A stretch of DNA of 64,000 nucleotides, taken from NCBI GenBank assembly GCA_032164295.1, contig JAJHTX010000013.1:620001-684000 (forward strand), given 5' to 3'. Below, piece by piece: positions 20,130 to 59,617 of this stretch. How positions within the stretch are numbered: position 1 is the stretch's first letter; every line of letters starts with the position of its first letter. The notes below the pieces were generated by a model. It had not been told where the DNA came from. It was given only the letters and a program-made list of their open reading frames with translations, and made no database searches. The DNA comes from Inonotus obliquus. Its lineage: Eukaryota; Basidiomycota; Agaricomycetes; Hymenochaetales; Hymenochaetaceae. Both the position numbers and the translations under genes were made by a program.

Positions 20130-20163
20130 GTGGGTTCAACAATATTTCATTTGTATTAATAAG

Positions 20164-20180
20164 AATGGCTTGTGACCATT
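20164..20180 (-). other. 3' tail hairpin of E1
   Basis: In element sense AATGGT-CACAA-GCCATT forms six pairs, the last being T-G, 28 nt before the junction motif. Confidence 0.75.
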
Positions 20181-20437
20181 TACAAACTAAGCCTTAGCAG
20201 GGTAAACTAAAACGAGCAAAGCAAAAGAAAAGAAGACCTCCCACATTTCAAGTGCGAAAAACGGGTACAGTCAGAAACCTCCCACATTCCAAAAAGAAAA
20301 ACGGGTACAGTTAGAAACCTCCCACATTCCAAACAAGAAAAACGAGTACAGTCACCCTCCGCTCTGTTCTTCACTGTAGCCATGAGTCGGGACAAAGAAA
20401 ACATCACCCCCGCGGGGATGTAAAACCGTATCCTACT

Positions 20438-23400
20438 TCACGGTGGTTTGAACACTTCAACCAAGCGAGTAGTCGAAGCGAGCATGTTGTTGAAACGGTG
20501 GAACCAATCCAGCGTCCGTGCTTGAGGAAAGAAGCCCCAATATCTTGGGCACTCCAGTAAACGATGAGATATCGTATCCAGGACTTCGCAGTCTACACAG
20601 TCCGCGTTCGCGTCGGTAAGGCGTGACATGAATTCCCCTATTGCTGAAACTCCAGCCAAAAGGCGGAGAGCCGTAGTTTCTCCTACTCGGGAGATGGTTG
20701 CATGAGTAATGTAAATGGGGACCGGGCGCGGGTTAGAAATGATAAGCCTTTGCGATGGTGTCTCTATGGTGTGGTATGACGCAGTTCGCGCTTGAAGTAG
20801 GAGCGTCTTCCATGCCTCGATCGTGTCTTGTCGGGCGGAAATCTTGACGCCATTGACCGAGACGGCCGGAAATAAAACGTACTCGTCCTCCTCTAAGGGA
20901 GGCTTGGCGGGGAAGGAGCGAGTGGGGCAAACTCGAAAGGAAAAAAAGGCCCCAGACTGTGCCGTCGCACTAGTGAACTGTTCAATAATAGCTAGGACTG
21001 TAGAGTCCGGTGAAAGTAGATCCGTTCGAAAAGAAACTGGAACGTAAATACGAATGGGGATTATGCGTACGTATGTAAACAGGTGAGTCAGAAAAAGAGA
21101 CATAAACTTAGCCAAGGAGACTAAAACTAAAGAAAAAGAATCCAAGTCCTGCGTTGCCTGGTAAGCGATCTGCTTTTCCAGCATACCATTACCATTATCC
21201 GACCAGACCTCCACTCTTCTCGGCCTTTCAGATGAAAATACCCATACGGTTGGGCCTTGCTCCCTCTGTGGATGCTCCAGTATATGGGCCGTAGCCCTGT
21301 GCCACCTTGAACGGTGTTCCGGACTCGGGAAATGTGTAATGGGAAGCATGGGGCGACGCACGATACTCCTCCAATATTCTATCCGCACCGGTGGGGATCC
21401 AAGTCGGCTAGCCTCTATCCTGGCATTCTGAGTTTCCGCGGTGTAGGCCATAGTAAGGACTATCGGGGGAACACCTGCGAGGACTTCCATAATGTCCGTC
21501 CTGGTGAGTGGGAGCCAGTCGCCCATGTCCATAAGCGCCCGCCTGTGAATCGCCTCAAAGCGGACCGCAAGTTCCGGCTGCTTAGTCATCCAGATAGGCG
21601 CTCCCCACGCCATAACCGGGACCAGCACGTTCTGGTAATACTTTCGCATCGTCTTGAGTCGAGCGCCCCGCGCACGACTAGTCATCCACCGAAGCGCGTT
21701 CCACGTGTGTTTAGCCGCATTACATCTGGAAGTAATGTGCGGTTTGAAGCTCCCTGTGTAGGACATCTCTATGCCCAGCCACTTCAACACATCCCCCGCC
21801 CATTCAATCTGCATGCCATTCAAGTTCAAAGGGGCGTTTAGGATGCTTCTGTGCCTTCCCTTAACGATGCCCTTGATAGACGCCGGGTCAATATGCAGGC
21901 CTATAGCTGTCAGCGCTGCCTCTACTCTTCTCATGCCTTCCTGGGTGGAGAGGAGAAGTCGGAACGCGTTCCTCCCGTGAGTGAGGAGCAGGCCGTCATC
22001 CATGTAGAAGAAAAGTGTCAGGTCGAGATGTCTGAGCGCTATATTGGCTGCTATGTTAGCCAAAACTGGGGACATGGGGGATCCCTGCGGGACGCCTATG
22101 TTCAGCTTGATAAACCAGGCCGACCGTTGACCGTTGAAGGAGAAAGCAATTTGGCGCTGCTCCGTGAAACGAGTAATAACGTTCGTCCACGATTGCGGGA
22201 CCCCTAACTCGTCCAGGCTGTTTCGTAAAACTTCCGGACGGACTGTATCGAAGAAGCCCTGAATGTCAAAGCCCACCATTGCATACGTTTCCTCCTCGTC
22301 CTGAGATGCCGCCAACAGCGCATGCCATGCCGTCATGACCGATGCGCCGCGTCTCCCTCCAAACTGTCTCTTGTCAAAGAGAGGATTATAGTGGAGCATG
22401 GCCTGCAGCCGTGTCGCAATCACTCTCTCGAAGACCTTCGCTAGGACTTCCTCAACGCAGATGGGGCGATAGGCCCTAGGCGTGTCTAGTGGGTATGGTT
22501 TGGGTTTACGTACCATGGCCACGACCGATCGTTTCAGTTCCGCAGGAAAACAGCCCGTGTCTATCATACCGTTGAAGAGATGTGTGAAACATGCGAGGTG
22601 ACGCCGGATAACCCACTCCAGTGCCTGAAAGGACATGCCGGAGGGACCTGGCGCACTATTAGTAGGCATGCCGCTGAGAGCGATAAGGACCTCGCTTTCA
22701 GTTATGTCGTGCTGCCGCCCGATTGAGCGAAGGGGGACGTCCACAATAGAGTCCCTTCTTTCCGGAAAGTAATGTTGACGGAAAGCCTGAGCGATTTCGA
22801 CATGTCTAACCGCTCTAAAAGGAGCCACCAAGGAAGGGATGTTGACCTTTCGTCGTGGTAGGCCTGCCCTATGGAAAGACCATGGGGATGCGTTGCCCGC
22901 TTCTTCGCGCCGCTTGCAATACCATGCCTCACGTCTGTCGCGCAACCAGAACAAGAGATCCGGGGCATTCTCCCTCACCCGACGGTCACACTCCTCATCC
23001 CACCATTTCTCCTTCCTTTGGGAGGTTGTCTCATAGGTTAGGGCGCTTGTTGCTTGTTGAGCGCTAGTCCAGAACCTCGACACCCAAGCAGAAACAGACG
23101 CCTCACTTCGAAAGCTATCTTCCCAAAACACGCTTGGGACCATGTATTCCAGTTCCGCCGCCCATGCTTCAGCTTTGTCATTGGGAATGCCCATGCGAAC
23201 CAGGCTGGCCCGGTTGAATACTCCAGTAAAGTCTGCGACCAAAATTTTATGTTGTCGAGCCGTACCGGTATTCCTGACAGCGCGCCACGTCGACCGCAAG
23301 TCTGGAAGCGTGCCTGGTGTGAAGAACATAACATCTGGGTGAGTACCACTACCTCTTTGCATTCCATGACACGTGATGACTCTAGGATCATCAGCGCATG

Positions 23401-23962
23401 AGATTTCAGGGAAGTCATCAAGCCAGGACTCAAAGAAATCTGAGCACGTACGCGTATCAGCCCGCAGTAAAGTAGGGAAATCGGACCATCTCCCAGTTGC
23501 ATTGACATCCGCTCCAATAACCGTACGGGCAGGGAAACCTTGGGTGAAACGGCGTGACGTAGCGTCCCAGGTAGACATGTGTGTTGTATATGGGCAGTAT
23601 ACCGAGAAGATGTGTATGTCTCCAGTGTCAAAGTGCAACTCGACATGAACCATTGTATCAAGCGGGACGTCCGTGTGCTGAGACCATCGAATGCCGTTCG
23701 GGACTGCTATTGCTACCCATGGGTTCGATCCAGCAGCCAGGATGATTCTGTGACCGTTAAATAGAGGAGCTCCAGTGTCCTGGACTTCTCGCTCGCCGGT
23801 AGTTCTCGCAACGCCAACCATGGAGACTGGAACCTCCTGGATGCACCATACATCCAGATCCCACGCAGATAGGACCTGCCTTTGCAGCTTATGCTGAGCC
23901 ATAAATAAAGCAAGACGCGAACGACCAGCATTATAAGATATGATTCGGAGTTCGCCCTTCAT
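20438..23962 (-). CDS. LINE ORF2 (endonuclease and reverse transcriptase), copy E1
   Basis: This frame of 1174 aa is uninterrupted. The N-terminal ~235 residues are an AP-like endonuclease: ISYNAGRSR, WCIQEV, a GADVNATGRWSD motif near residue 150 and a THPDVMFF near the end. The reverse transcriptase covers about 420-720, with APGPSGMSF, YPLDTPRAYRPICVEEVLAK, the motif A stretch GFDIQGFFD, motif B GVPQGSPMSP and an FFYMDD active site near 652. The C-terminus has a C-x2-C-x7-H-x4-C finger (about 1122-1138). The middle part (about 850-1100) has no domain I can name and no clear RNase H. The start ATG overlaps the ORF1 stop in TAATG. The protein is open, but its partner ORF1 in this copy is broken. 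The family is Tad-like or a related fungal LINE clade by inference. Confidence 0.92.
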   Translation of the reverse strand: MKGELRIISYNAGRSRLALFMAQHKLQRQVLSAWDLDVWCIQEVPVSMVGVARTTGEREVQDTGAPLFNGHRIILAAGSNPWVAIAVPNGIRWSQHTDVPLDTMVHVELHFDTGDIHIFSVYCPYTTHMSTWDATSRRFTQGFPARTVIGADVNATGRWSDFPTLLRADTRTCSDFFESWLDDFPEISCADDPRVITCHGMQRGSGTHPDVMFFTPGTLPDLRSTWRAVRNTGTARQHKILVADFTGVFNRASLVRMGIPNDKAEAWAAELEYMVPSVFWEDSFRSEASVSAWVSRFWTSAQQATSALTYETTSQRKEKWWDEECDRRVRENAPDLLFWLRDRREAWYCKRREEAGNASPWSFHRAGLPRRKVNIPSLVAPFRAVRHVEIAQAFRQHYFPERRDSIVDVPLRSIGRQHDITESEVLIALSGMPTNSAPGPSGMSFQALEWVIRRHLACFTHLFNGMIDTGCFPAELKRSVVAMVRKPKPYPLDTPRAYRPICVEEVLAKVFERVIATRLQAMLHYNPLFDKRQFGGRRGASVMTAWHALLAASQDEEETYAMVGFDIQGFFDTVRPEVLRNSLDELGVPQSWTNVITRFTEQRQIAFSFNGQRSAWFIKLNIGVPQGSPMSPVLANIAANIALRHLDLTLFFYMDDGLLLTHGRNAFRLLLSTQEGMRRVEAALTAIGLHIDPASIKGIVKGRHRSILNAPLNLNGMQIEWAGDVLKWLGIEMSYTGSFKPHITSRCNAAKHTWNALRWMTSRARGARLKTMRKYYQNVLVPVMAWGAPIWMTKQPELAVRFEAIHRRALMDMGDWLPLTRTDIMEVLAGVPPIVLTMAYTAETQNARIEASRLGSPPVRIEYWRSIVRRPMLPITHFPSPEHRSRWHRATAHILEHPQREQGPTVWVFSSERPRRVEVWSDNGNGMLEKQIAYQATQDLDSFSLVLVSLAKFMSLFLTHLFTYVRIIPIRIYVPVSFRTDLLSPDSTVLAIIEQFTSATAQSGAFFSFRVCPTRSFPAKPPLEEDEYVLFPAVSVNGVKISARQDTIEAWKTLLLQARTASYHTIETPSQRLIISNPRPVPIYITHATISRVGETTALRLLAGVSAIGEFMSRLTDANADCVDCEVLDTISHRLLECPRYWGFFPQARTLDWFHRFNNMLASTTRLVEVFKPP

Positions 23963-24579
23963 TAATACGTGGGCAGGGAGCCAGAATGCGAAGCGTTACT
24001 AGTGGGGCATCTGGGGCAGCGCGAATCGTTGGCCCTGTGCGGGCCCTGGCAGTTAGCGCATTTGATAACATGCTTGCACACGTTTGCGTCTGGGCAGTCG
24101 TCACATTTCTTTTCGCATAACTCCGTTTGATGAGGTTCCGCACATCGAGCACAGCGGAATAGCTCAATGCAATCCTGGTCACTGTGGCAGTAGCGCCAGC
24201 ACTTACGACACTGAATTGGTCCCGTTCTAACCTGTTGTTCCACCGCGTATTGATAGCGGCCGTAGTATCAAATGGCCCGCTTAACAATGCCGTTGTTGTG
24301 GAAAATAGCGTCCCTAGCCTTGAGTGGGTGCGAGACAGCCACGAAGACCGACGCAGTTGCCTTCCCGTTTCTGTCCACCAGACGTTGGAGGGTGGCTTCC
24401 GAGCCAGCAAAGCGAGGCGCTTCGGTGAAAGGGAATTCGACAAACACCGGATTGGATAAGCGGAGTTCTTCGGCAATCTCCACAGGTGTGTGAATCTTTC
24501 GGGTTATCGGGTGGATGATGGGGAAGCCCGGGACTATGAACTGGAAGCTTTCAACGTGAGGAACGAACTCCACTGACGT

Positions 24580-25880
24580 TAAATGTGCAAGATCGCGTCC
24601 GGTACCGGAGGTACCGAGACGAGGGGTGTATGGTTTTAAGTGGGGGAGGGCTAATACGTGCCGGTACTTAACCAGTACGGTCACGGTACTTGTTGTCTAT
24701 GAAAAGGGGGAGTTAATGGATGGGCCGGAAGTGAAGGGTATGTGATTCTGGTATGAAAAGGACAGGTTAGAATGTGGAAAAACTTCGGTACAGGTCGGTA
24801 TGGGAGAGAACGTAGCAAAACAAGAGTCTAATACCGTGGGAAAAACCTCGGTACAGGTCGGTACAGAAAGAAAGGGGTCGGTACCGTGGGAAAAATGTCG
24901 GTACAGGTCGGTACTTGAACGAACGGGTTCGGTATGTGCAGAAACGTTGTAAAACAAAAGCTCAGTACAGAAACGAAAGGTGGATGTGCAGAATACAAAG
25001 GATAACAAAATGTCGGTACCGTGGGAAAAACGTCGGTACAGGTCGGTACTGCAAGGAAACAGCTAGCACGGGGTGGTATAGCAAGAAACAGACTAGGGGA
25101 GGCTGGTGGCTGAGAGTGTTGACTGGACTGGGAAGGAAACCTGAGCCCTCACACGGGAGGCTAACTCTGAAGGTTCACTTGAGCAGAACTGGGATAGAAC
25201 TTGAGACGAAGCTGAGATGAGACTAAGAAGGGGGTGAGGAAACCCGAGCCCTCACGCTAGAGGCTAGCTCCTAAGATTACCTGGAGAGCTACTACGTACA
25301 GGAGGAGATATTTATACTACTGTACCGTAGTTAGCTCATAAATCCAAAAGGAGAAAGTAGAAAGGAAGATCAAAACAAAGAAAAGTCTGAATAAAAATGT
25401 AACAAGGAAAGTGAACATTGCAGCGCCATCAGGGGGACAACAAGAAAGGGTTAGGGAGGACAAGATACCAATGAAAACGTAGCATATAGTACCCTTGGAT
25501 GAAAAGTCCTCAGGACAAGAGATATGCGCCCCTGCTGATTGATACCGACACGTTCCTGGTGGTACCGGACCTGAAAACCTTAATGGATACTGACCCTGAG
25601 CTTCCCCAAAGAACCGGCATGCATAGTCCAACCATCAGGAATGAATACCAGAGAGGAAGACATCTGATCCATGTCATGAGAGCATGTCGAATTGTCAAAT
25701 TGTCTCGGTACCGGGTTTCTCGGCACTCGGTACTCTCGGTATTCTCGGTACCAGGTTTCTTGGCGCTCGGTACCGGTACTCTCGGCGTTCGGTATCTTGA
25801 GAAATGGGACCGACGTTTTCTCTAGGTGTGCTGGTGGATACGGGCTTGATACCGAGCTCAGCTGCACGTAGTTCTCTTCA
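24580..25880 (-). repeat. 3' LTR of the gag-only element
   Basis: This is a direct repeat of 28986-30286 with the same length (1301 bp). I counted about 19 GGTAC pentamers. A ~30-bp unit (GTGGGAAAAA followed by TCGGTACAGGTCGGTA) recurs at about 24776, 24837, 24886 and 25021. A second pair of related blocks (GAGCCCTCAC, then GAGGCTA) is at about 25140 and 25226. Confidence 0.92.
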
Positions 25881-26254
25881 TCTCCCGGGCACTTTAAATA
25901 GTGACTGTCCTCAGTCATCCTCCATAGCCAAGGTGCATCGGTAACGTGAGGCGGCACAAGGAGAGGTAAACCAAAGAGTCCTTTCTCCAACCCAATCCAT
26001 CATCGAGTTGACTCGGCATCTCCGGTACCAGTGATTAGTAAGCTTCGGTACCGGGAGTGGTAGTGGAATGCAACTGCAGTGTCATCGAATAGGAACCAAT
26101 ACCGAAATTCGAACAAAGGATAGAAGAACTTGAATAAGTGAGACAGTGGAAGAATGTATAAGATAATTTGAGAATGGGATGAGGGTATAGGTACAGAAGG
26201 TAAAACAATCAAATACCGACCGTGCAAACGGGTTTCAGAAGTAGAAGTTCAAAA
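25881..26254. other. 3' internal untranslated region of the LTR element
   Basis: This lies between the Gag stop and the 3' LTR. In element sense the last bases before the LTR are GCCCGGGAGA, a weak candidate for the polypurine tract. No coding capacity is evident. Confidence 0.4.
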
Positions 26255-28714
26255 TTATCCATAATCAGAAAGGAGAGGGTGGAATAGAAGAAAGAATAGC
26301 TGGGAAAGGAGTAGCAACCAGTCCACAGCCATACCGAGGTATGTTCCACCATTGATACCATAGCCCCGTCCGGTACCGAGCTTATGTAAGTGGTACCGAG
26401 GCGGTACTGAGAACAGGAGAGAGTCTTGCGCAGTACTCTGGTACCGGTAGTTGCTGCGAGCCGTCGCTAGTTGCTTGCCTGGGTCGGCAGGGAACGTCTG
26501 GCTGAGTTGTCCTAAAATGAGCAAGCCATAGTCGTCCTTGAACCATAGTCCATCACGTGTACCAGATACCGACGACCCCTTGGTGCTTGTAGAATTTACG
26601 GTCGCCACGTTTCTCAACTCGAGAGCCCTTACTGAAGTACCGGAAATGCTTTGATGGGTCGTAGAATGAGTTCCAAGAGCTGCTGCCACCACTGAACGAA
26701 CTACCGAGCCAATACCAGGGGGTTGGTACCGATGCCGAGAGAAAAGTACCGGTACCGGTACCGGAAATCGATCGAATAAGCCAAAACGTGCAACTTCTCC
26801 AATACCGATAGAAGCTCTACTAGTTCCAGTAGATGTCGTACAGCTGACCTGAGACTCCTGAGCTGAATTCTGCCTGACACCATAGTCCAAATGGCTGGCG
26901 TCTACCGACTCGATGTGGCTGTGCCCGGTACCGAGAGGCTGGGGAATCCCGGGTGACGAGACTCGCATGGGGGAGCAACCAATAAACGCCTTTCGAAATT
27001 CATATACCGGATCCAAAACCTGAGGATGAGCACCGACTAGACAAAAGATTGACATGGGGGCCTTCCTAGCTATCCCAACGACTGGGAGAATGGGTACCGA
27101 AGATTCTGGAGCATGTACTGGGGCCTCGACGATTGCATTCTGCACTGGAACGATTGGTACCGGGGACTTGACAATTTCATCTGGCACCAGAATAACTGGT
27201 ACCGGAGCCACCAATGACACTAACGAGTCATCAGCTGGATCCATATCCTGACTGATACCAGGGTCCGGTATGTGGCTGTGCACCTCAATTCCGATTGATA
27301 CTCGATGCTCGTCCACCAGACGTATGCCTTCTAGACACTGCATTACTTCCTGACCTAACACGTCTCCTCCTGCAACCGAATCCGCTGGTCCTTCTTCAAC
27401 TAACGACCTGGAGCTGAGTACCGGGAGATCTTCTTCCTTCTCTGACGGCTCTCCTGCTGCCTCGGTACCAACTGTATACGCACTCCTGGGACCTCCACAC
27501 TCAACTGAAACCAACTCGCTCATCTGCCTTCTAAGCTCCTGCGACAACGCCAACAACTCGCGTTGAGATACCGTAAGCCCAGATCCAAGAGGCTGATCTA
27601 CCGGGGCCAGTACCGGAGACTTCCAGCCAGCTACCGAGGGCTCATACACATCTTCTTTGGGTTTCGGGAGTGGGTCCGGCATTGCTAAGACTCTGCTGGG
27701 AGACGTGTCCTCCATATAGTAGTACTCCGGTATGGATGATCTCTCGGCACTCCGGTACTCCGGTACTTGTGATCTCTCGGCACTCCGGTACTTCCTCCTG
27801 CGTGCTTCCTCTGCCTTCCTTCGAGCCTCCTCAAGCAGAATCTCCAACCTAATGACCTCCTGATCATCTCCTACCTCCTCTGCAATTCTCTGCCTTGCAA
27901 CTGGGGACTCTCGGCGTTGCTGGATCGGTACCGAGACTGATACCGGAGGTGAATGGGCCACAACTACGTTTACCGAAGGCAACTCCAATGGTTCCAGTAA
28001 CAACTGCTGCTCCTGCTCCAGTTCCTCTACCTGTAACTGAAGGACCTGCAACGTCTTCCAGAGTGTACCAAGCTCCGGCTTCTCCTCGACTGGCTGCGAC
28101 TCAGCATTACGTAATCCGGTACGAGGTGATTCATCAAAAAAGTCGGTACCGAGAACGTAATCAGCATGCTTATGGATCTGCTCCACTGTATATGTCGTTC
28201 CAGGCTGGGGATCGGCTTCTTTTGTCTCGAGACGTAAACGAATGCGATCCCGAAGGCTACCGGTGAATACTGAGAAGTAGTACTGGGCTGCTTCCTCTAC
28301 CGAGAGGGTACCGAGACTCTTCAGATAGCTCCAATGCACGAAAAATTCGTTCCGGTACTGGGCCAGATCGAGTCGTGTCTTGATCCCTTCGCATCTCCAG
28401 AACTCTACAAGCTGAGCAACATCTTCTCGAGTATACCGGGCTCCTTCAGACAAAATTGGGTAAAACGACTTGATAGCTGCTTTGGCCTTCGACCAATCGG
28501 TAGCGGTATCTGACGCATCTGGTGAGGTCTTCCAAAGCTCGGCTACGGTGCGAGATGCATAGTATCCAGCATACCAAATCATCTGGGCTGGGTCTAGGTT
28601 GTATTCAGCAGCTAGGTACTCTATGTCTTCAAGGTACCGGGGCAGTTCTCGTGGTTCGGTACCATCGAACGAAGGAGTGTCTTCGGTTCCGCGTCTGGGA
28701 GGACGTGCGACCAT
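26255..28714 (-). CDS. Gag-like protein of the LTR element
   Basis: This 819-aa frame begins MVARPPRRGTEDTPSFDGTE. Residues ~15-200 look like a Ty3/Gypsy-type Gag capsid region: FDGTEPRELPRYLEDIEYL, WSKAKAAIKSFYP, ARYTREDVAQLVEFWR, LDLAQYRNEFFVHW and YFSVFTGSLRDRIRLRL. Predicted coiled-coil stretches follow (about 218-250 and 285-315, EEARRKAEEARRRKY). The rest is Pro/Ser/Val-rich low complexity. A short internal duplication (YRSAERS) is visible near residue 315. No CCHC knuckle and no aspartic protease motif are seen, and the end is a Leu/Phe-rich hydrophobic stretch. Many Gly-Thr, Val-Pro and Tyr-Arg pairs are simply the translations of GGTACC-containing DNA. It probably supplies or imitates the capsid that packages the element RNA. 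Confidence 0.7.
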   Translation of the reverse strand: MVARPPRRGTEDTPSFDGTEPRELPRYLEDIEYLAAEYNLDPAQMIWYAGYYASRTVAELWKTSPDASDTATDWSKAKAAIKSFYPILSEGARYTREDVAQLVEFWRCEGIKTRLDLAQYRNEFFVHWSYLKSLGTLSVEEAAQYYFSVFTGSLRDRIRLRLETKEADPQPGTTYTVEQIHKHADYVLGTDFFDESPRTGLRNAESQPVEEKPELGTLWKTLQVLQLQVEELEQEQQLLLEPLELPSVNVVVAHSPPVSVSVPIQQRRESPVARQRIAEEVGDDQEVIRLEILLEEARRKAEEARRRKYRSAERSQVPEYRSAERSSIPEYYYMEDTSPSRVLAMPDPLPKPKEDVYEPSVAGWKSPVLAPVDQPLGSGLTVSQRELLALSQELRRQMSELVSVECGGPRSAYTVGTEAAGEPSEKEEDLPVLSSRSLVEEGPADSVAGGDVLGQEVMQCLEGIRLVDEHRVSIGIEVHSHIPDPGISQDMDPADDSLVSLVAPVPVILVPDEIVKSPVPIVPVQNAIVEAPVHAPESSVPILPVVGIARKAPMSIFCLVGAHPQVLDPVYEFRKAFIGCSPMRVSSPGIPQPLGTGHSHIESVDASHLDYGVRQNSAQESQVSCTTSTGTSRASIGIGEVARFGLFDRFPVPVPVLFSRHRYQPPGIGSVVRSVVAAALGTHSTTHQSISGTSVRALELRNVATVNSTSTKGSSVSGTRDGLWFKDDYGLLILGQLSQTFPADPGKQLATARSNYRYQSTAQDSLLFSVPPRYHLHKLGTGRGYGINGGTYLGMAVDWLLLLSQLFFLLFHPLLSDYG

Positions 28715-28966
28715 CTTGCTAGAATCGAATTACTTCTCGATGGGACTGTAGTGGTAATAAAATTAACTGAAAGGGGGAATGAACTAATGGCTGGGGGACT
28801 GCGAAATGATGATAAAGGTGGAAGCTACTCTCCGGTACCGAGGTACCGGTCTGCCGAGACTTTTACTGAGACGAAACTGGACAAAGCAAACTGTCGGTAT
28901 TGAAAGGGAATGAAAGAGGAGTAGTCAGAATAATCAATTAGACAACAAGGCACCTTGAAAACCCTC

Positions 28967-28983
28967 CCTCGCGGTGGGCTCCA
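28967..28983 (-). other. Candidate primer-binding site of the LTR element
   Basis: Two bases inside the 5' LTR, in element sense, the sequence reads TGGAGCCCACCGCGAGG. Its complement ends in CCA and looks like a tRNA acceptor end (CGCGGTGGGCTCCA). The tRNA was not identified. Confidence 0.5.
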
Positions 28984-28985
28984 GA

Positions 28986-32022: not shown

Positions 32023-32039
32023 AATGACTTGTGGTCATT
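32023..32039 (-). other. 3' tail hairpin of E2
   Basis: In element sense AATGAC-CACAA-GTCATT. Relative to E1, the fifth pair changed from G-C to A-T on both sides and the sixth from T-G to C-G, so pairing is kept. Confidence 0.75.
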
Positions 32040-32290
32040 TACATACTAAGCCTAGCAGGGTAAACTAAAACGAGCAAAACAAAAGAAGACCTCCCACATC
32101 TCAAGTGAGAAAAACGGGTACAGTCAGAAACCTCCCACATTCCAAAAAAGAAAACGGGTACAGTTAGAAACCTCCCACATTCCACACAAGAAAAACGAGT
32201 ACAGTCACCCTCCGCTCTGTTCTTCGCTGTAACCAAGAGTCGGGACAAAGAAAACGTCACCCCCGCGGGGATGTAAAACCGTATCCTACT

Positions 32291-38563: not shown

Positions 38564-38585
38564 GGCGGTAAGAGAGTAAAGTGGT

Positions 38586-40085: not shown

Positions 40086-40136
40086 CCCCTTCGCTCTGTT
40101 CTTCACTGTAGCCATGAGTCGGGACAAGGAAAACGT

Positions 40137-40152
40137 CACCCCCGAAGGGATG
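40137..40152 (-). other. Stem-loop just after the ORF2 stop (E3)
   Basis: In element sense CATCCC and GGGGTG form six pairs (one G-T) around a TTCG loop, 18 nt after the stop. The same stem is at 46283-46298 (E4) and 53733-53748 (E5) with TTCG, and at 20405-20420 (E1) and 32258-32273 (E2) with a CGCG loop. Confidence 0.7.
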
Positions 40153-40169
40153 TAAAACCGTATCCTCCT

Positions 40170-45991: not shown

Positions 45992-46049
45992 GGCGGTAAA
46001 AGAGAAAGGAGGCGGGTGGGTTTAACAATATATCATTTGTAATAATAAG

Positions 46050-46066
46050 AATGGCTTGTGACCATT
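46050..46066 (-). other. 3' tail hairpin of E4
   Basis: Identical to the E1 hairpin. Confidence 0.75.
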
Positions 46067-46315
46067 TACAAACTGAACCTAACTAAGGTAAACTAAAACG
46101 AGCACGCAAAAGAAAACCTCCCACATTCCAAGTAAGGAAAACGGGTACAGTCAGCAACCTCCCACACTCCGAAGAGAACGGGTACAGTCAGCAACCTCCC
46201 ACATTCCAAACGAGAAAAACGAGTACAGTCCCCGTCGCTATGTTCTTCACTATAGCCATGAGTCGGGACGAAAGGAAAATGTCACCCCCGAAGGGATGTA
46301 AAACCGTGTCCTCCT

Positions 46316-49840: not shown

Positions 49841-52128
49841 TAGTAAATAGGCGGGGAGCTAGAACGCGCAGCGTTATTTGTGGGGCGCCTGGGGCAGCGC
49901 GAATCATTAGCTCTGTGCGGACCTTGACAGTTGGCACACTTGATGACGTGCTTGCACGCATTGGAATCCGGACATGCGTCGCATTTCTTCTCGCATAACT
50001 CCGTTTGGTGAGGTTCCGCGCATCGGGCACATCGGTATAGCTCGATGCAGTCCTGGTCACTGTGGCGGTAGCGCCAGCACTTGCGACACTGAATTGGTCC
50101 CGTTCTGACCCTCTGTTCCACCGCATACTGGTAGCGGCCATAATATCGAATGGCACGCTTAACGATACCGTTGTTATGGAAAATAGCCTCCCTGGCCTTC
50201 AGTGGGTGCGAAACCGCCACGAAAACTGACGCAGTAGCCTTCGCATTTCTATCCACCAAGCGTTGAAGAGTGGCTTCCGAGCCAGCGAAGCGGGGTGCTT
50301 CTGTGAAGGGGAATTCGACAAATACCGGGTTGGATAGGCGAAGTTCCTCGGCGATCTCCACCGGCGTGTGAATTTTCCGGGTCACTGGGTGAATAATAGG
50401 GAAACCTGGGACTATGAACTGGAAGCTTTCGACATGCGGGACGAACTCCACTGACGTCATGGCGTCTGACGTAACGCGTAGCTTCTTCTGCAGTTCCTCG
50501 GCCCATGCCGGACCGTATTCTGCGATATCCGGTCGCGCGTCGACCTCAATGTTGAAATCTCCCTTGAGATTCCACTGACCCTTCCGCAACGTGATAGCGC
50601 CTCCCTTGTTAGGGGTTGGCTTGGACGCTCTCGCCGCGATGTACATTTCCTCGCGTGAGAGAGTAGGGTGAGGTTTGATGCGGAAACCCAAGACTGCCGC
50701 GACCTTCGCTTTGTTCTGTCGAGCCTGGTTTATAGTTATAGGCTTCTTCTTCTTCTCAGCCGGAGCTGCTGCGCCCGCAGAACGTCCCGCCGCCTCAGCG
50801 TAAGAATGAGAGGCCGCGTTCTTCTTTGTGACCTGAACAAAAGGTTGAGCCTGAGCTGGGATGTACCTTATATAGCGTTCCGGAATGCCGTGAGACTCGT
50901 TCGCCGAGTTGATCGCATCCACGTCAATAATGTCAACGGGCGGATTCTGTGGGACTTGTTTCCCCTTGCCTTTTCCAGGCTTAGGAGGGGCGCCCCCCTG
51001 GTGGGTAGTATTATGCGTGACCTGCGCAACGGGGGCTACTACCTGCACACCCGGGCGTCGATTAGCGGTCACAGTCTGGGGTGCTTTATTCTGTCCACCT
51101 CCCGGGGCAGCACCCTGCACAGCGGGGGGTTGTGCCCACCGAGACGCCTGGAGCCCTTGGCCCCCTGTGGTCGTCTGGTGGACGGGACTCGGCAGACGTC
51201 CCTGCTCTACCTTCTTCAACCTCTCACCCAGCACGGCAAGTTGTTTCCTCGTCTCATCCGCCGCCTCCCGTGCCTGTCGACCGGCCGCCATCTGTTCCTC
51301 GCTCATCAACTTGAGGCGGTCCAGGATCGCATACAACTGTGGGTCCACGTCCTTCCCGTGCGTTGGATAAACTGCCGGCGTGAGCGCGCAGTCGTCGGCC
51401 AGGTGGCATAGACCGTCCTCAAAGCTGCCCGGCCAGAGGGATTCCTTCATGTAGCCTCCAGAAAAACCCCACATGAACCGGTCCATGACGTCATTCTGTG
51501 CAAACGGGCCGTCCTCCCGTGACTGGGAAATAGCCGAAAACATGATGGCCGTGACCTTACCCAAGGTATACCCCATCTGCTCGTAGTTATGCGCTGACGA
51601 GCCAGGCTGAGATCCGGGCGACTCCTCGACCGGGTCCGGCATCCGGAGTTCCACTTCGATCCTGTCCATGCATTCTCCCACGAACGCATACGTCCTCGAG
51701 TAGGCGGCCTGTGCGTCAAAAACGCTTTCCACCTCCATCTGCTCGTCCCACGTCTTCTTCCCAGGCTCAGGGGCCTCCCTAGCAGGAGCCTCCCCAGAAG
51801 CCTTGCACTTCCCCAGTCGTTGCGCCAGGGCGTCTTGCTCGTTGAGTGCGTCTGCCACTGCTGTGTTGACGCTGTGACCAGTGGGGACGTCCCACCCCGA
51901 GTCAGCTGTGCGAGCCCGCAGGTCCTCTAAGGATTCCTGGGACATCTGGGACCTCACCAGTGCAGGGTCCGGGACGAAAGACGGTGCCCCCACAGACTGG
52001 GAAACACGGCTGATGGCGGGTTTAGGAGGCGCAGGGGGTGCCCCTTTGCCAGACAATGCTGCTTGAATACGTTTTACCCCTCCCCTAGTTACTGATCGTA
52101 AGCTACGTGACTCGCCATTATCAGACAT
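49840..52128 (-). CDS. LINE ORF1 (Gag-like, zinc knuckles), copy E4
   Basis: This intact frame of 762 aa is three residues shorter than E3 and E5, because of a small in-frame deletion before AQPFVQVTKKN. The knuckle cysteines and histidines are all present. The stop/start overlap with ORF2 is TAATG. Confidence 0.92.
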   Translation of the reverse strand: MSDNGESRSLRSVTRGGVKRIQAALSGKGAPPAPPKPAISRVSQSVGAPSFVPDPALVRSQMSQESLEDLRARTADSGWDVPTGHSVNTAVADALNEQDALAQRLGKCKASGEAPAREAPEPGKKTWDEQMEVESVFDAQAAYSRTYAFVGECMDRIEVELRMPDPVEESPGSQPGSSAHNYEQMGYTLGKVTAIMFSAISQSREDGPFAQNDVMDRFMWGFSGGYMKESLWPGSFEDGLCHLADDCALTPAVYPTHGKDVDPQLYAILDRLKLMSEEQMAAGRQAREAADETRKQLAVLGERLKKVEQGRLPSPVHQTTTGGQGLQASRWAQPPAVQGAAPGGGQNKAPQTVTANRRPGVQVVAPVAQVTHNTTHQGGAPPKPGKGKGKQVPQNPPVDIIDVDAINSANESHGIPERYIRYIPAQAQPFVQVTKKNAASHSYAEAAGRSAGAAAPAEKKKKPITINQARQNKAKVAAVLGFRIKPHPTLSREEMYIAARASKPTPNKGGAITLRKGQWNLKGDFNIEVDARPDIAEYGPAWAEELQKKLRVTSDAMTSVEFVPHVESFQFIVPGFPIIHPVTRKIHTPVEIAEELRLSNPVFVEFPFTEAPRFAGSEATLQRLVDRNAKATASVFVAVSHPLKAREAIFHNNGIVKRAIRYYGRYQYAVEQRVRTGPIQCRKCWRYRHSDQDCIELYRCARCAEPHQTELCEKKCDACPDSNACKHVIKCANCQGPHRANDSRCPRRPTNNAARSSSPPIY

Positions 52129-52153
52129 GGCGGTAAAAGAGAAAGGCAGGCAG

Positions 52154-53463
52154 GTGGGTTTAACAATATACTTTCATTTGATAATAATGGCTTGTGACCA
52201 TGTTACAAACGAAAACGGGAAGAACTATATGAGCAAAGCAAAGGCAACCTCCCACATCCCCAGTGAGAAAACGGGTACAGTCCGAAGACCTCCCACATTC
52301 CCGACCAGAAAAACGGGTACAGTCACCCTCGATTAGCCCTTCAAAATAACTATATGCGGGGAAAAAAGAAAACCCCACGCAACTAACTAGTCGGCGCGTA
52401 AAACGGGTACAGTCCAAAGACCTCCCACATTACCTGTTGTAAAAACCGCCCCTTGGATAAAAAACAACAGGGCCGACCATATCAAAAACGAAGTATCGGA
52501 CAGGAGACTTCGACAGGATGAAGCCCGACCGTGCCCCGAGTCCGACATAAAATACCGACCCAAAGAAGAGTGCGCCGCCCCTACTTTTAATACTGCATCC
52601 TCACTTCCCACACTTCCTCCCCGCTGACAGACCCCGTACGCCACATTTGAGGGAGCAGCTGCATCCGGCAGCATCCGGCCTGGTTACCGGCGTGATGTCC
52701 TGGGTCGCTACATCCGGTAGCATCCGGCCTGGTTACCGGCGTGAAACCCGCATATAACGTGCGAGACCTCTTGAACTCGTCCCCCCGGAGGTAGGAGTAA
52801 ATTGTTCGGCTTCGAGAGGAATTCGGCCTACCCCATTGGGTCGCCTGCCAAGCGCCCTGGCGTAGTGAACAGGAATCTAAGGCATCACCCCTAAACCCCG
52901 CTACCTATGTGGAAAGGCTGTGCGATCGTCTTTTCGGAGTGCCGCAGACTTCGGGTAAACGATGAGCTCCGGACCGGTAAACCGACCGTGTGAGCGTAAA
53001 GGACGAAACCGGAGTCCGAGAAGACGGACGTGAGAGAGTCGTCGACAGCCAATCAATGACCGCCATAGAATATGAACAGAGCAGGGGGTGACGACCCCGC
53101 CCTAAGGAATGCGCCGATGCGCTTCGAATCGTAGTGCGCCGAGGCGCAAGTAAGCCGTATCGTGGACGAACGGACACACTTAGTCTAAGGGAAGGCTATA
53201 GCCCTGCCGGTTTTGACGAACTGGACGGTCGCCAGCATAGTTTCCATCAGAGAGTAAGAGGCGAACAGTCGCGGAGAACAGGGACAACAGCCTGTCTCCC
53301 ACTGCAGTCGACCAGGTCCTATGAAGGAGACTGGGTTTATGACGCCCACTGCTCATAAGGCAGCGAAGCGGAGCCGTCCCACCACGTCCACGCAGGACAG
53401 CGCACTCACACAGAGAGGCCCAACCCATGCTACAGGCGATGATGGTGGTTAAAGAGAAAGCAG
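52154..53463 (-). mobile_element. Non-autonomous element S2 sharing both ends with the LINEs
   Basis: The element is 1310 bp. It is the same type as S1, with the 33-bp block again present twice (52662-52694 and 52711-52743). Its 5' part in element sense (about 53180-53460) is almost identical to S1, while the middle (about 52740-52960) has many substitutions and small indels. The 3' hairpin stem is kept at 52187-52201. Confidence 0.8.
52187..52201 (-). other. 3' tail hairpin of S2
   Basis: Same stem one pair shorter (ATGGT-CACAA-GCCAT) although the flanking bases differ by small insertions. Confidence 0.7.
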
Positions 53464-53498
53464 GTGGGTTTAACAATATATCATTTGTAATTAATAAG

Positions 53499-53515
53499 AA
53501 TGGCTTGTGACCATT
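53499..53515 (-). other. 3' tail hairpin of E5
   Basis: Identical to the E1 hairpin. Confidence 0.75.
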
Positions 53516-53765
53516 TACAGACTAAACCTGAGTAAGGTAAACTAAAACGAACTTCACACAAAGAAACCTCCCACATCTCAAGCACGAAAAACGGGTACAG
53601 TCAGCAACCTCCCACACTCCGAAGAGAACGGGTACAGTCAGCAACCTCCCACATCCCATACAAGAAAAACGAGTACAGTCCCCCCCGCTCTGTTCTTCAC
53701 TATAGCCATGAGTCGGGACGAAAGGAAAACGTCACCCCCGAAGGGATGTAAAACCGTGTCCTCCT

Positions 53766-56700
53766 TCATGGTGGCTGGAACACTTCAACTAGACGAGCAG
53801 TCGAAGCGAGCAAATTATTGAATCGGTGGAACCAATCCAACGTCTGCGCATGAGGAAAGAAGCCCCAGTATGTCGGGCACTCCAGTAAACGATGAGCGAT
53901 CGTATCCAGTACATTGCAGTTGGAGCAATCTGCGTCCACGTCAATAAGGCGCGACATAAATTCCCCTGTTGCAGAAACTCCAGCCAGAAGGCGGAGCAAC
54001 GTGGTTTCTCCTTCGCGAGAGAGGGTTGTGTGTGTAATGTGGATAGGGACCGGGCGCGGGTTCGAGATAATGAGCCTCTGCGACGGAGTTTCTATAGTAT
54101 GATAGGAAGCAGTTCACGCCTGTAGTACGAGCGTCTTCCATGCCCTGATCGTGTCCAAGCGAGCAGAGGCCTTGACCCCATTGACCGAAACAGCCGGGAA
54201 TAAAACAAACTCGTCGTTCTCCAGAGGAGGCTTGACGGGGAAAAGGCGAGCAGGGCAAACACGAAAAGAAAAGGAAGCCCCAGACTGCGCCAACGCACTA
54301 GTAAACTGTTCAATAATAGCCAGGACTGAAGAGTCCGGTGAAAGTAAATCCGCTCGAAAAGAAACTGGAACGAGAATACGAATAGGAATCACGCGCACAA
54401 ATGTAAACGGGTGAGTCAAAAAGAGAGACATAAACTTGACCAAAGAAACCAGAACTAAAGAAAAGGAGTCCAAATCCTGGGTTGACTGGTAAGCGACCTG
54501 TTTGTGCAGCATACCATCGCCGTTATCCGACCAGACCTCTACTCTCCTCGGGCTGTCCGATGAAAATACCCACACAGTCGGGCCATGCTCCCGTAGTGGA
54601 TGATCCAGTATATGAGCCGTAGCCCTGTGCCATCTTGAACGATGTTCCGGGCTTGGGAAGTGCGTGATAGGGAGCATAGGACGACGTACCACACTCCTCC
54701 AATATCCTGTCTGGACCGGTGGGGACCCGAGCCGACTGGCCTCTATCCTAGCGTTCTGAGTTTCAGCAGTATAGGCCAACGTCAGAATTATCGGGGGGAC
54801 ACCTGCGAGGATTTCCATGATGTCCGTCCTGGTAAGTGGGAGCCAACCGCCCAAGTCCATAAGCGCTCGTCTGTGAGCCGCCTCAAACCGGACCGCGAGC
54901 TCTGGCTGCTTAGTCATCCAAATAGGCGCTCCCCACGCCATGACCGGAACTAAGACGTTCTGATAAAACCTCCGCATCGTTTTAAGTCGGGCGCCCTGCG
55001 CACGACTCGTCATCCAACGCAGCGCGTTCCACGTATGCTTCGCTGCATTCCGCCTAGAGATCACGTGTGCCTTGAAACTCCCTGTGTAGGACATCTCTAT
55101 GCCCAACCACTTCAACACGTCACCCGCCCACTCAATCTGTAAGCCGTTCAAGTTTAACGGGGCTCCCAGAACGTCCCTGTGCCTTCCTTTCGCAATGCCC
55201 TTAATGGATGTCGGGTCGATGTTCAGGCCTATCGCTGCCAAAGCTGTGTCTATTCTTCTCATGCCCTCCTGAGTGGAGAGGAGGAGTCGGAAAGCGTTCC
55301 TTCCGTGAGTAAGGAGCAAGCCGTCATCCATGTAAAAGAAGAGCGTCAAGTCCAGATGTCTGATCGCTATATTGGCTGCTATATTCGCCAAAACTGGAGA
55401 CATGGGGGATCCCTGCGGGACGCCTATGTTCGGTTTAATAAACCAGGCTGATCGCTGACCATTGAAGGAGAAGGCGATTTGGCGCTGCTCCGTGAACCGC
55501 GTAATCAGATTTGTCCATGATTGCGGAACTCCCAGCTCGTCCAGGCTGCTCCGTAACACTTCAGGGCGAACTGTATCGAAGAAGCCCTGTATGTCAAAGC
55601 CTACCATCGTGTACGTTTCCTCCTCATCCTGAGATGCCGCCAATAGCGCATGCCATGCCGTTATGACCGAGGCGCCGCGCCTGCCCCCGAACTGCCTCTT
55701 GTCAAAGAGGGGGTTGCCGTGAAGCATGGTCTGCAGACGAGTCGCGATGACCCTCTCGAAAACCTTCGCTAGGACTTCTTCAACGCAGATAGGGCGGTAG
55801 GCCCTAGGCGTGTCTAATGGATACGGCTTAGGTTTGCGTACCATGGCCACGACAGATCGCTTTAGTTCCGCCGGGAAGCAACCTGTGTCTATCATACCGT
55901 TGAAGAGGCGCGTGAAACAAGCCAAGTGGCGCCGAATAACCCGCTCCAGTGCCTGGAACGACATACCAGAAGGGCCTGGCGCACTATTGGTTGGCATTCC
56001 GCTGAGCGCAATAAGGATCTCGCTCTCCGTGATGTCATGTTGGCGTCCGACCGACCGAAGGGGAGCGTTTGTAACAGGGTCGCGCCTCTCCGGGAAGTAG
56101 TGTTGCCGAAAGGCCTGCGCGATTTCGACATGTCGAACCGCCCTGAAAGGAGCAGCCAACGAGGGGATATTGACCTTTCGCCGTGGTAGACCCGCTCTGT
56201 GGAAAGACCATGGGGACGCATTTCCCGCCTCCTCACGTCGTTTGTGGAACCATGCCTCCCGCCTGTCACGCAGCCAGAAAAGGAGGTCCGGGGCACTCTC
56301 CCTGACCCGACGATCGCACTCCTCGTCCCACCATTTCTCCTTCCTTTGAGAAGTTGTTTCATATGTTAAGGCGTTCGTTGCCTGTTGGGTACTGATCCAA
56401 AACCTCGTTACCCAGGCAGACACAGCCTCCTCGCTTCGAAAGCTCTCTTCCCAAAACACGCCCGGGACCATATATTCAAGCTCCGCCGCCCATGCCTCAG
56501 CTTTGTCATTAGGAATACCCATGCGAACCAAGCTAGCTCGGTTAAAAACTCCGGTGAAGTCTGCGATTAAGACTTTATGTTGTCGAACCGTACCAGTATT
56601 TTTAACAGCGCGCCACGTCGCCCGCAGGTCTGGAAGCGTGCCCGGTGTGAAGAACATAACGTCCGGGTGAGTACCACTGCCCCTCTGTTCCCCATGACAC

Positions 56701-57290
56701 GTGATAACCCTTGGATCATCAGCGCATGCGATCTCAGGGGAGTCGTCCAGCCAGGACTCAAAGAAATCCGAGCGCACGCGAGTATCCGCCCTCATTAACG
56801 TAGGAAAATCAGACCATCTTCCAGCTGCATTAATATCCGCCCCGATGACCGTGCGGGCCGGAAAACCTTGAGTGAAACGGCGCGACGTAGCGTCCCAGGA
56901 GGAGTCGTGTGTTGTATGCGGGCAATATACCGAGAAGACGTGTATGTCCCCAACGTCCAAATGCATCTCGACATGCACCATAGTGTCAGGCGGGACGTCT
57001 GTGTGCTGAGACCATCGAATGCCATTCGGGACCGCTATTGCCACCCATGGGTTCGGTCCAGCGGCCAAGATAATTCTATGTCCATTGAAAAGAGGAGCTC
57101 CAGTATCCTGGACTTCTCGCTCGCCAGTAGTTCGCGCTACGCCAACCATGGAAAAGGGAACCTCTTGGATGCACCATACATCCAGATCCCATGCAGATAG
57201 GACCTGCCCCTGCAACCTATGCTGAGCCATAAATAAAGCCAGTCGCGAACGACCAGCGTTATAAGATACAAATCGAAGCTCGCCCTTCAT
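53766..57290 (-). pseudogene. LINE ORF2, copy E5, with a TGA codon
   Basis: The span is 3525 bp, the same as the intact ORF2, with no frameshift. A TGA at 54114-54116 stands where other copies have CGA. It truncates the protein after residue 1058, so the endonuclease and reverse transcriptase remain and the C-terminal Cys/His finger is lost. The copy may therefore keep polymerase activity, but this is untested inference. Confidence 0.9.
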
Positions 57291-59587
57291 TAGTAAGTAG
57301 GCGGGGAGCCAGAATGCGCAGCGTTATTTGTGGGGCGCCTGGGGCAGCGCGAATCGTTAGCTCTGTGCGGGCCTTGACAGTTGGCGCACTTGATGACGTG
57401 CTTGCACGCGTTGGCGTCCGGGCATGCGTCGCATTTCTTCTCGCATAGCTCCGTCTGGTGAGGTTCCGCGCATCGGGCACATCGGTATAACTCGATGCAA
57501 TCCTGGTCACTATGGCGGTAGCGCCAACACTTGCGGCACTGAATTGGTCCCGTTCTGACCCTCTGTTCCACCGCATACTGGTAGCGGCCATAATATCGAA
57601 TGGCTCGCTTAACGATGCCGTTGCTATGGAAAATAGCCTCCCTGGCCTTGAGTGGGTGCGAAACTGCCACGAAAACCGACGCAGTAGCCTTCGCATTCCT
57701 ATCCACCAGACGTTGCAGAGTGGCTTCCGAACCAGCGAAACGAGGAGCCTCTGTAAAGGGGAACTCGACGAAAACCGGGTTAGATAAACGGAGCTCCTCG
57801 GCAATCTCCACAGGTGTGTGGATCTTCCGGGTAACCGGGTGGATAATGGGGAAGCCCGGGACTATAAACTGGAAACTCTCGACGTGCGGTACGAACTCTA
57901 CTGACGTCATGGCATCTGACGTAACGCGTAGCTTCTTCTGCAGCTCCTCGGCCCACGCCGGTCCGTATTCCGCAATGTCTGGTCGTGCGTCAACCTCAAT
58001 GTTGAAGTCTCCTTTGAGACTCCACTGGCCCTTCCGCAGCGTAATCGCGCCACCCTTGTTAGGGGTCGGCTTAGAAGCTCGGGCCGCGATGTACATTTCC
58101 TCCCGTGAAAGAGAGGGATGGGGTTTGATACGGAAACCCAGGACCGCGGCCACCTTTGCCTTGTTCTGGCGAGCCTGATTGATGGTGATAGGCTTTTTCT
58201 TCTTCTGAGCCGGGGCGGCTGCGCCAACAGGACGTCCCGCTGCCTGAGCGTAAGAGTGGGAGGCCGCGTTCTTCCTCGTGACCTGAACGAAGGGTTGGGC
58301 TATCGGGGCCGGGGCTGGAATGTACCGTACGTAGCGGTCCGGGATGCCATTCGACTCATTAGCCGAATTAATCGCATCTACGTCAATGACGTCGACTGGC
58401 GGGTTCTGCGGAGCCTGTCTACCCTTGCCTTTGCCAGGCTTGGGAGGGGCGACCGTCTGATGGGTAGTATTATGCGCAACCTGCGCACCGGGGGCTACTA
58501 CCTGCTCGCCCGGGCGTCGACTAACGGTCGCATTCTGGGGTGCTTTATTCTGTCCACCTCCCGGGGCAGCACCCTGCACAGCGGGGGGTTGTGCCCACCG
58601 AGACGCCTGGAGCCCTTGGCCCCCTATGGTCGTCTGGTGGACGGGACCCGGCAAACGTCCCTGCTCTACCTTCTTCAGCCTCTCACCCATAACAGCAAGC
58701 TGTTTCCTAGTCTCGTCCGCCGCCTCCCGCGCCTGACGAGCGGCCGCCATCTGTTCCTCGCTCATCAACTTGAGGCGGTCCAAAATCGCATACAGTTGAG
58801 GGTCCACGTCCTTCCCGTGCGTCGGGTAAACGGCCGGCGTGAGAGCACAATCGTCGGCCAGGTGGCGCAAACCGTCCTCAAAGCCGCCCGGCCAGAGGGA
58901 TTCCTTCATGTAGCCCCCAGAGAAGCCCCACATGAACCGATCCATAACGTCGTTCTGTGCAAACGGTCCGTCCTCCCTCGACTGGGAGATGGCCGAGAAC
59001 AAGACGGACGTAACCTTACCTAAGGTATAACCCATCTGTTCATAATTATGCGCTGACGAACCGGGCTGCGATCCGGGCGACTCCTCGACAGGATCCGGCA
59101 TTCGAAGTTCCGCTTCTATCCGGTCCATACACTCTCCCACGAAAGCGTAGGTTCTGGTGTAGGCGGCCTGTGCATCAAAAACACTTTCCACCTCCATCTG
59201 CTCGTCCCACGTCTTCTTCCCAGGCTCAGGGGCCTCCCTAGCAGGAGCCTCCCCCGACGCCTTTCGTTTCCCTAGCCGTTTCGCCAGAGCGTCTTGTTCG
59301 TTGAGAGCGTCCGCCACTGATGTGTTGACGCTGTGACCAGTGGGGACGTCCCAGCCTGAGTCAGCCGTACGAGCCCGCAGGTCCTCTAAGGATTCCTGGG
59401 ACATCTGGGACCTCACTAATGCAGGGTCTGGGACGAAGGACGATGCCCCCACCGACTGGGAGACACGACCGATGGCGGGTTTCGGTGGCGCAGGGGGTGC
59501 CCCTTTGCCAGACAATGCTGCTTGAATACGTTTTACGCCTCCTCTAGTTACTGATCGCAAACTACGTGACTCGCCATTATCAGACAT
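57290..59587 (-). CDS. LINE ORF1 (Gag-like, zinc knuckles), copy E5
   Basis: This intact frame of 765 aa has the same layout as E3, with three Cys/His knuckles at the C-terminal end. It starts 22 nt after the junction motif and overlaps ORF2 in TAATG. Confidence 0.92.
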   Translation of the reverse strand: MSDNGESRSLRSVTRGGVKRIQAALSGKGAPPAPPKPAIGRVSQSVGASSFVPDPALVRSQMSQESLEDLRARTADSGWDVPTGHSVNTSVADALNEQDALAKRLGKRKASGEAPAREAPEPGKKTWDEQMEVESVFDAQAAYTRTYAFVGECMDRIEAELRMPDPVEESPGSQPGSSAHNYEQMGYTLGKVTSVLFSAISQSREDGPFAQNDVMDRFMWGFSGGYMKESLWPGGFEDGLRHLADDCALTPAVYPTHGKDVDPQLYAILDRLKLMSEEQMAAARQAREAADETRKQLAVMGERLKKVEQGRLPGPVHQTTIGGQGLQASRWAQPPAVQGAAPGGGQNKAPQNATVSRRPGEQVVAPGAQVAHNTTHQTVAPPKPGKGKGRQAPQNPPVDVIDVDAINSANESNGIPDRYVRYIPAPAPIAQPFVQVTRKNAASHSYAQAAGRPVGAAAPAQKKKKPITINQARQNKAKVAAVLGFRIKPHPSLSREEMYIAARASKPTPNKGGAITLRKGQWSLKGDFNIEVDARPDIAEYGPAWAEELQKKLRVTSDAMTSVEFVPHVESFQFIVPGFPIIHPVTRKIHTPVEIAEELRLSNPVFVEFPFTEAPRFAGSEATLQRLVDRNAKATASVFVAVSHPLKAREAIFHSNGIVKRAIRYYGRYQYAVEQRVRTGPIQCRKCWRYRHSDQDCIELYRCARCAEPHQTELCEKKCDACPDANACKHVIKCANCQGPHRANDSRCPRRPTNNAAHSGSPPTY

Positions 59588-59609
59588 GGCGGTAAAAGAG
59601 AAAGAGCAG

Positions 59610-59617
59610 GTGGGTTT
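59610..59617. other. Spare target motif at the outer edge of the array
   Basis: GTGGGTTT stands here next to host sequence (GTAATGCTTAGGGG) with no element tail attached. It therefore looks like the second half of a target-site duplication and identifies GTGGGTT as target rather than only as the element's own end. Confidence 0.7.

Follow-up and report, generated by a model that had tools for sequence, protein, structure and literature searches.

In the genome of the fungus Inonotus obliquus, full-length long interspersed nuclear elements (LINEs) and short non-autonomous partners stand head to tail in arrays, and these arrays are best explained by repeated target-primed insertion guided by an anchor outside the array, an explanation we consider likely. 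One array lies in a window of 64,000 nucleotides (assembly GCA_032164295.1, contig JAJHTX010000013.1, positions 620,001 to 684,000 of the forward strand) and is here called the C13 array; other arrays are labelled in the same manner. The signal common to the insertion sites appears to be a hexamer resembling CACGTG, located about 21 nt upstream of the target-site duplication and outside the array.

The C13 array and its elements

What delimits the units of this array? Eight copies of GTGGGTT, all on the plus strand and all where an initial annotation of the window had placed them, separate seven head-to-tail units, namely five LINEs of about 6.15 kb and two partners of about 1.3 kb (table 1). 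The element sense is the minus strand, on which the motif reads AACCCAC. Counted over both strands of the window, GTGGGTT occurs 14 times where 7.9 are expected, a number reached by 4 of 100 shuffles, and this raw count alone is weak evidence for an array. The presence of the motif at 8 of 8 junctions, in seven of them immediately after the element 3′ end TTGTT(A/G), is not chance. Measured from the junction coordinates, three LINEs are 6144, 6138 and 6146 bp long, the fourth is 6597 bp including an insert of 449 bp, and the fifth is 11,859 bp including a long terminal repeat (LTR) element of about 5.7 kb. Within this array no LINE is 5′-truncated, as the annotation had it. The short units, of 1286 and 1310 bp, belong to a separate non-autonomous element whose similarity to the LINE is confined to roughly 10 nt at the start and ~180 nt at the end. 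Read 5′ to 3′ in the element sense, the four bases after AACCCAC are CTGC, CTGC, CTGC, CCGC, CCCG, ACCA, ACCA and ACCA, a stepwise shift along the array. Since the units differ by up to ~16% and the genome (36.07 Mb) is assembled in 30 contigs, an assembly artefact seems unlikely.

The second open reading frame (ORF2) encodes a reverse transcriptase of the LINE/R2 type (PF00078, E 2e-26), with PDB sequence matches to LINE-1 ORF2p and to R2. An apurinic/apyrimidinic (AP)-like endonuclease, proposed in the annotation, is indeed found at the N-terminus of ORF2. Structural matches by Foldseek/VIA to TDP2, exonuclease III and other enzymes were set aside as reflecting a common fold only. The element has no LTRs, makes a target-site duplication and has a defined 3′ end, as do non-LTR retrotransposons with an AP endonuclease (APE type). 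Its leader ahead of the first ATG is only ~20 nt long. Elsewhere in the genome, one unit of the C1 array is a 5′-truncated LINE of ~0.56 kb, and there is a second LINE family whose ORF2 is 57–59% identical. In the 5′ 600 bp of ORF1 the two families have ~80% DNA identity, though their ORF2 proteins have ~58%, and copies from C1 and C13 change groups between the ORF1 and ORF2 trees; recombination between families 1 and 2 is possible.

Each array has its own junction word

Does the endonuclease recognise AACCCAC, as first proposed? At least 11 further arrays were found in the same genome, each with its own junction word of 10–13 bp (copy counts come from genome-wide searches and are lower bounds). 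The longest carry ACATCCGTTGCT (C1, 11 copies, 10 units), TGCCCATG(T/C)CC (C12A, 11 copies, 10 units) and TTGATAAGCTT (C12B, 7 copies, 6 units), and C8a carries TCCTTCCCTT in 4 copies. Two or three copies each were found of TGCCGC(A/C)AAAC (C3), TTTTACATGGC (C3b), GGAACCCACGACC (C5a), AGACTCAGACT (C5b), CTGTAAGCACCC (C5c), AGCCATGGCG (C6a) and GAGTTATTTGGCT (C8b). A possible extra array on C6 (2076–2084k), whose words gave no clean alignment, was left out of the count.

In the arrays with both ends read (C13, C1, C3, C12A, C12B and C8a) each outer end has the word as well, as the 7-base core only in C13 and with one base changed in C12A and C3. The word is therefore the target-site duplication of that site. 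Each of these arrays combines LINEs and short units at one word, and the element 3′ ends are invariant where the flanks vary. Five words searched across five arrays were found at no foreign junction-like place, save one AACCCAC 7-mer in C3. The duplications differ from site to site, and in 15 cut-aligned sites no column from −10 to −1 exceeds 0.7 bits.

A site-specific endonuclease for AACCCAC would account for the junctions of C13, but the related elements in the other arrays have different words, each confined to its own array, and their copies are thus flanked by unrelated sequence. We regard such an endonuclease as having next to no chance of being correct; AACCCAC is merely the target-site duplication of C13. 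The other half of the original proposal, that arrays grow by independent LINE insertions duplicating a target which remains open to further use, is supported.

A CACGTG-like anchor upstream of the founder sites

If the duplicated word is private to each array, what do the sites have in common? We collected 29 outer 5′ flanks, from arrays and single copies, by element position alone. Loci without a usable element start were dropped (C10_224, C8_1515, C3_2507, C9_1782, C9_1705, C5_155, C2_1989s and C6_2141), as were the internal junctions C8_42, C6_2084, C6_2079s and C5_1605s; other internal junctions were also kept out of the founder set. Within a slot of 13 nt preceding the element, CACGTG occurs in 12 of the 29 flanks, CAYGTG in 19, and CACGTG with at most one mismatch in 25. 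The corresponding means over 2000 shuffles of the same 60 nt are 0.23, 0.53 and 2.9 (maxima 3, 4 and 9), and slots shifted by −20, 15, 30 or 45 nt give at most 2, 3 and 7.

The spacing is nearly rigid. At the 15 sites with a second copy of the duplication, the hexamer starts at −21 relative to the duplication in 12, one of which (C8_89) has two mismatches; two others have it at −20, and C1 has it at −19. Position −13 is C in 12 of the 15, and −14 and −11 are also biased. A weight matrix built from these sites finds the motif in nine of the 14 other flanks at background P<0.05, six of them at P<0.01. Genome-wide, the pattern CACGTG+N17–40+CTCTTTNACC has 16 matches, against 2 for a reversed-pattern control; 15 of the 16 resemble element starts, ten already in the set and five new. 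The version with CATGTG has 6 matches, five in the set and one new, and the scrambled hexamer GTGCAC has none (control 1). With CACGTG moved to N41–64 there are 10 matches (control 0), two of which are second E-boxes (CACGTG-like sites) of known sites. Taken together, the counts and the spacing point to this hexamer as the shared target signal.

Several observations weigh against that conclusion. The slot was fixed only after the pattern had first been seen, and 4 of the 29 flanks contain nothing in it that matches CACGTG to within one mismatch. C8_89 and C12_745s have two mismatches, C10_1351s has nothing similar, and C6_2076s is counted only through GACGTG at the slot edge. At C11_134 an exact CACGTG falls outside the slot because the copy lacks its first ~20 nt, and the duplication there is only 2–5 nt. 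Five of the 14 held-out flanks fail the weight matrix, and two of the nine that pass (C2_1988s and C8_295s) match at a box that lies too far upstream. For CATGTG the reversed-pattern control gives 3 against 6, and one match of the pattern with the moved hexamer (C6:537k) also has the ending of an element start. Lastly, the outer 5′ flank of C1 (C1:3130870, L116) has CATGTG at −19 followed by the tail-like TTATATTGTTA. This suggests a rearrangement, as if anchor-side units had been deleted, and it therefore slightly weakens the anchor explanation and slightly raises a self-targeting rival.

According to that rival, the endonuclease recognises the element 3′ end (...TTGTTA) and inserts at any resident 3′ junction, duplicating whatever follows, so that the E-box would matter for the founder only. 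Every internal junction that we read does lie exactly at a resident 3′ end, TTGTTA or TTGTCA, near-identical in both families; CAAATG or CAAATA occurs near −16 to −20 in the tails; and the C1 flank ends as just described. On the other hand, besides C1 none of the 14 other founder sites with a known duplication is preceded by TTGTTA. At the anchor position the founder motif gives scores of −8 to −27 in resident 3′ ends, and the best tail score anywhere in the last 45 nt, 4.8, is under the background 95% level of 5.8. Moreover, the trees tend to place the 3′-most copies at the base, the reverse of what a 5′-most founder would give. We consider self-targeting unlikely.

How the arrays grow

Could an array instead arise by segmental amplification, that is, by unequal exchange of one LINE unit together with its motif? 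The ORF2 tree does not unite the C13 LINEs in one clade (log-likelihood, lnL, 344 lower; p-AU, approximately unbiased test, 2e-38), nor do the short units of C1 form one (lnL 173 lower). Because of these two results, and because LINEs and short units are mixed at one word in each of the six arrays named above, local duplication fails as a general account. The pattern within C12B also speaks against it, the copy p1 being closest to p6 at the far end and not to its neighbour. In its favour, C12B p2 and p3 are identical over 1001 bp and the 5′-most pair of C12A (p1 and p2) is 99.8% identical over 1 kb, and exchange may have added some units. As the origin of the arrays we think it very improbable. 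Two tests do not favour the insertion reading: a C13 clade is not rejected by a tree of 600 bp of ORF1 (p-AU 0.10), nor a C12A clade by ORF2 (p-AU 0.42).

We also considered an ‘address label’ in read-through RNA, the array word forming a 3′ tail that steers copies home. It predicts array-specific clades, and the mixed trees of C13 and C1 disfavour it.

If insertion takes place on the anchor side, copies on the 3′ side should be older. The C1 LINEs branch sequentially from the 3′ end, the last two being sisters, and the outgroup-to-tip distance increases towards the anchor in the LINEs of C1 (rho −1.0) and C13 (rho −0.9; p 0.042 each). C12A leans the same way (rho −0.55, p 0.085); its near-identical pair, mentioned above, is the 5′-most one, and the changed base of its word is confined to the two anchor-side copies. 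The ORF1 tree places the 3′-most copies of C12A, C5a and C5b apart from the group that holds their 5′-most copies; C12B does not fit. Both foreign inserts of C13 sit in its two 3′-most LINEs, and C1 also has one in an inner LINE. The order is contradicted in two arrays. C12B is without a trend (rho −0.05, p 0.45), its 5′-most and 3′-most copies being 99.7% identical, and the short units of C1 give rho −0.3 (p 0.34), the 5′-most branching before its neighbours. We conclude that growth at the anchor side is likely but not proven, and that the arrays may be head-to-tail piles roughly ordered by age.

The C12B LINEs (C12:459–491k, L126–L130), with their nearly identical outermost copies and two inner copies that are identical over 1001 bp, suggest a recently active array.

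A proposed mechanism for repeated insertion

How might one anchor direct many insertions? We propose that the LINE protein, or a host factor carrying the LINE, would engage a site resembling CACGTG (CAYGTG, extended by a weaker NYCNY), and that the bottom strand would be nicked ~21 bp, two helical turns, downstream of the anchor start. The 3′ end of the element RNA (...TTGTTA or ...TTGTCA) would be reverse-transcribed from the nick, and cleavage of the second strand ~10–13 bp further on would create the duplication. The 5′ end of the new element would then face the anchor. Because the anchor and its 15-nt spacer are not consumed, the same position would be reusable, and the next LINE or short partner would enter there, between the anchor and the older copy, each insertion copying the same word again. 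The expected outcome is a head-to-tail array with one private word and with its youngest copies next to the anchor.

What lies around the anchors? We examined 17 3′ flanks and ran Pfam on nine ORFs, taken from seven of them plus one 5′ flank. In three 3′ flanks a Pfam-supported host gene in the same sense begins 23–54 nt after the duplication start: an RWD-domain protein at C1 (3e-12), mitochondrial ribosomal protein bL28 at C12A (1.8e-20, with PDB matches too) and a Crinkler-type N-terminus at C8 82k (3.6e-5, barely above the cut-off). On the anchor side of C12B a DUF1688 gene starts, facing away (1e-10). Plausible ORF starts 85–90 nt downstream at C13, C8b and C2 are without Pfam support, an ORF in the C9 flank has no Pfam match, and the remaining 3′ flanks examined gave nothing clear. 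Thus at least four sites are at host gene starts and some sites are promoter-proximal. The genome has 9 matches to the helix-loop-helix (HLH) domain of host basic HLH (bHLH) proteins.

A leader of ~20 nt is too short to hold an upstream promoter, and the element starts ~35 bp below the anchor; on these grounds the element may capture a host promoter. The fuller proposal, which is tentative and may well prove wrong, is that the LINE reads CACGTG, an RNA polymerase II (Pol II) word of the kind found in bHLH-type promoter elements, to find its site, cleaves the 5′ region of a host gene two helical turns further downstream and parks its near-leaderless 5′ end ~35 bp below a host promoter element able to transcribe it. 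The anchor would never be destroyed, and each array would keep its copies in order of arrival, the newest one always lying directly below the promoter.

Comparison with known systems

Inkcap and Tad1 are clades of fungal LINEs (PMC9674265). Others are Deceiver, L1 and CRE. TRAS1 and R1 are sequence-specific APE-type LINEs that use one repeated target sequence. Elements of that kind have a conserved cut sequence, whereas here the cut sequence varies between sites. McGurk and Barbash (2018) reportedly traced tandem arrays to elements that insert twice at a site they prefer. The general idea that site preference yields tandem copies is common to both cases; the external anchor at a fixed offset and the private spacer word are particular to the present arrays.

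The nearest mechanistic precedent that we found may be TRE5-A of Dictyostelium. TRE5-A and its relatives are APE-type non-LTR elements targeted to tRNA genes (PMC5391098, PMC5911963). Common to TRE5-A and the present LINE are an APE endonuclease and reverse transcriptase in ORF2, a target-site duplication, a non-autonomous partner, a fixed offset from a surviving external anchor that the 5′ end faces, and tandems formed when a new copy enters between the anchor and an older copy (TRE–TRE) (PMC5391098, PMC5911963). The anchors differ: that of TRE5-A is a tRNA gene, reached via RNA polymerase III (Pol III) factors at ~47 bp with some spread, whereas ours is a hexamer resembling CACGTG, placed at 21 bp with little variation. 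A Pol II promoter module is part of TRE5-A (PMC5633606), unlike the LINE here with its short leader, and the present arrays, unlike those of TRE5-A, reach ten units. ARAGORN, run with bacterial settings under which intron-containing tRNAs could escape, found no tRNA in the window or in 37 loci holding all 29 outer 5′ flanks, many of just ~100–200 nt; tRNA genes were the only Pol III genes sought.

Zepp of green algae likewise forms nested LINE clusters (PMC3446292). Those are described as one per chromosome and probably centromeric (PMC3446292), whereas here C5 has three arrays, C3, C8 and C12 have two each, and some are adjacent to genes. A centromeric reading of our own arrays, which had seemed to occur about once per contig, was dropped on finding several per contig. 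Hebe of bdelloid rotifers resembles the present LINE in its absence of 5′-truncated copies (save the one C1 unit here), its 3′ untranslated tandem repeats and its duplications of 7–12 bp (PMC2861651). It differs in being subtelomeric and in its poly(A) tail, and the part of that report used here mentions no fixed anchor (PMC2861651).

A limited search of the open-licence PMC literature, covering titles and abstract openings, returned no report of a LINE targeted to an E-box. Such targeting would be a new way for LINEs to choose their sites, by a short transcription-factor-type word at rigid spacing in place of ribosomal DNA, telomeres or tRNA genes, and would offer a natural model of targeted insertion by an APE-type element. 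The arrays may record insertion order, and the prediction is clear: targeting should hinge on six bases.

Features of the window

Table 1. Positions in the window of the C13 array, its flanking features and an adjacent ORF, listed from the anchor side.
Feature	Positions	Strand	Remarks
Putative array anchor, CTCGTG in element sense	59632..59637	−	one mismatch to CACGTG; starts 21 nt upstream of first AACCCAC
Outer 5′ target-site duplication copy, AACCCAC in element sense	59610..59616	−	
Unit 1, anchor-proximal full-length LINE	53471..59609	−	ORF1 in open frame 57290–59656, ORF2 in 54114–57323
Unit 2, short non-autonomous partner, ~1.3 kb	52161..53463	−	
Unit 3, full-length LINE	46023..52153	−	ORF2 in open frame 46316–49858
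Unit 4, full-length LINE	39879..46015	−	open ORF1 (frame 43694–46021, CCHC-type knuckles by eye); ORF2 in frame 40170–43727 encodes AP-like endonuclease and reverse transcriptase
Unit 5, short non-autonomous partner	38593..39871	−	
Unit 6, LINE	31996..38585	−	449-bp solo-LTR-like insert at 35014–35462
Unit 7, 3′-most LINE	20137..31988	−	holds ~5.7-kb LTR element with single gag-like ORF
Tandem repeats of ~40 bp, 3′ part of unit 7	20231..20354	−	similar arrays in units 1, 3, 4, 5 and 6
Outer 3′ target-site duplication copy	20130..20136	−	
ATG-initiated ORF in 3′ flank	19776..20051	−	starts 85 nt downstream of the outer duplication's start; F-box-like by eye, no Pfam match at E 0.1

The LTR element within unit 7 (24580–30286) has LTRs of 1301 bp that are 99.77% identical. 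Its 824-aa ORF, gag-like by eye, has no Pfam match, and no second ORF of 150 aa was found within the element, which is apparently young and non-autonomous. A sequence similar by eye to the insert in unit 6 occurs in the 3′-most unit of C5a (L079). Beyond the anchor, at 61990–63582 on the minus strand, an ORF of 530 aa without a Pfam match above the cut-off consists of ~309-bp tandem repeats and is rich in Ser, Thr, Asn and Gly.

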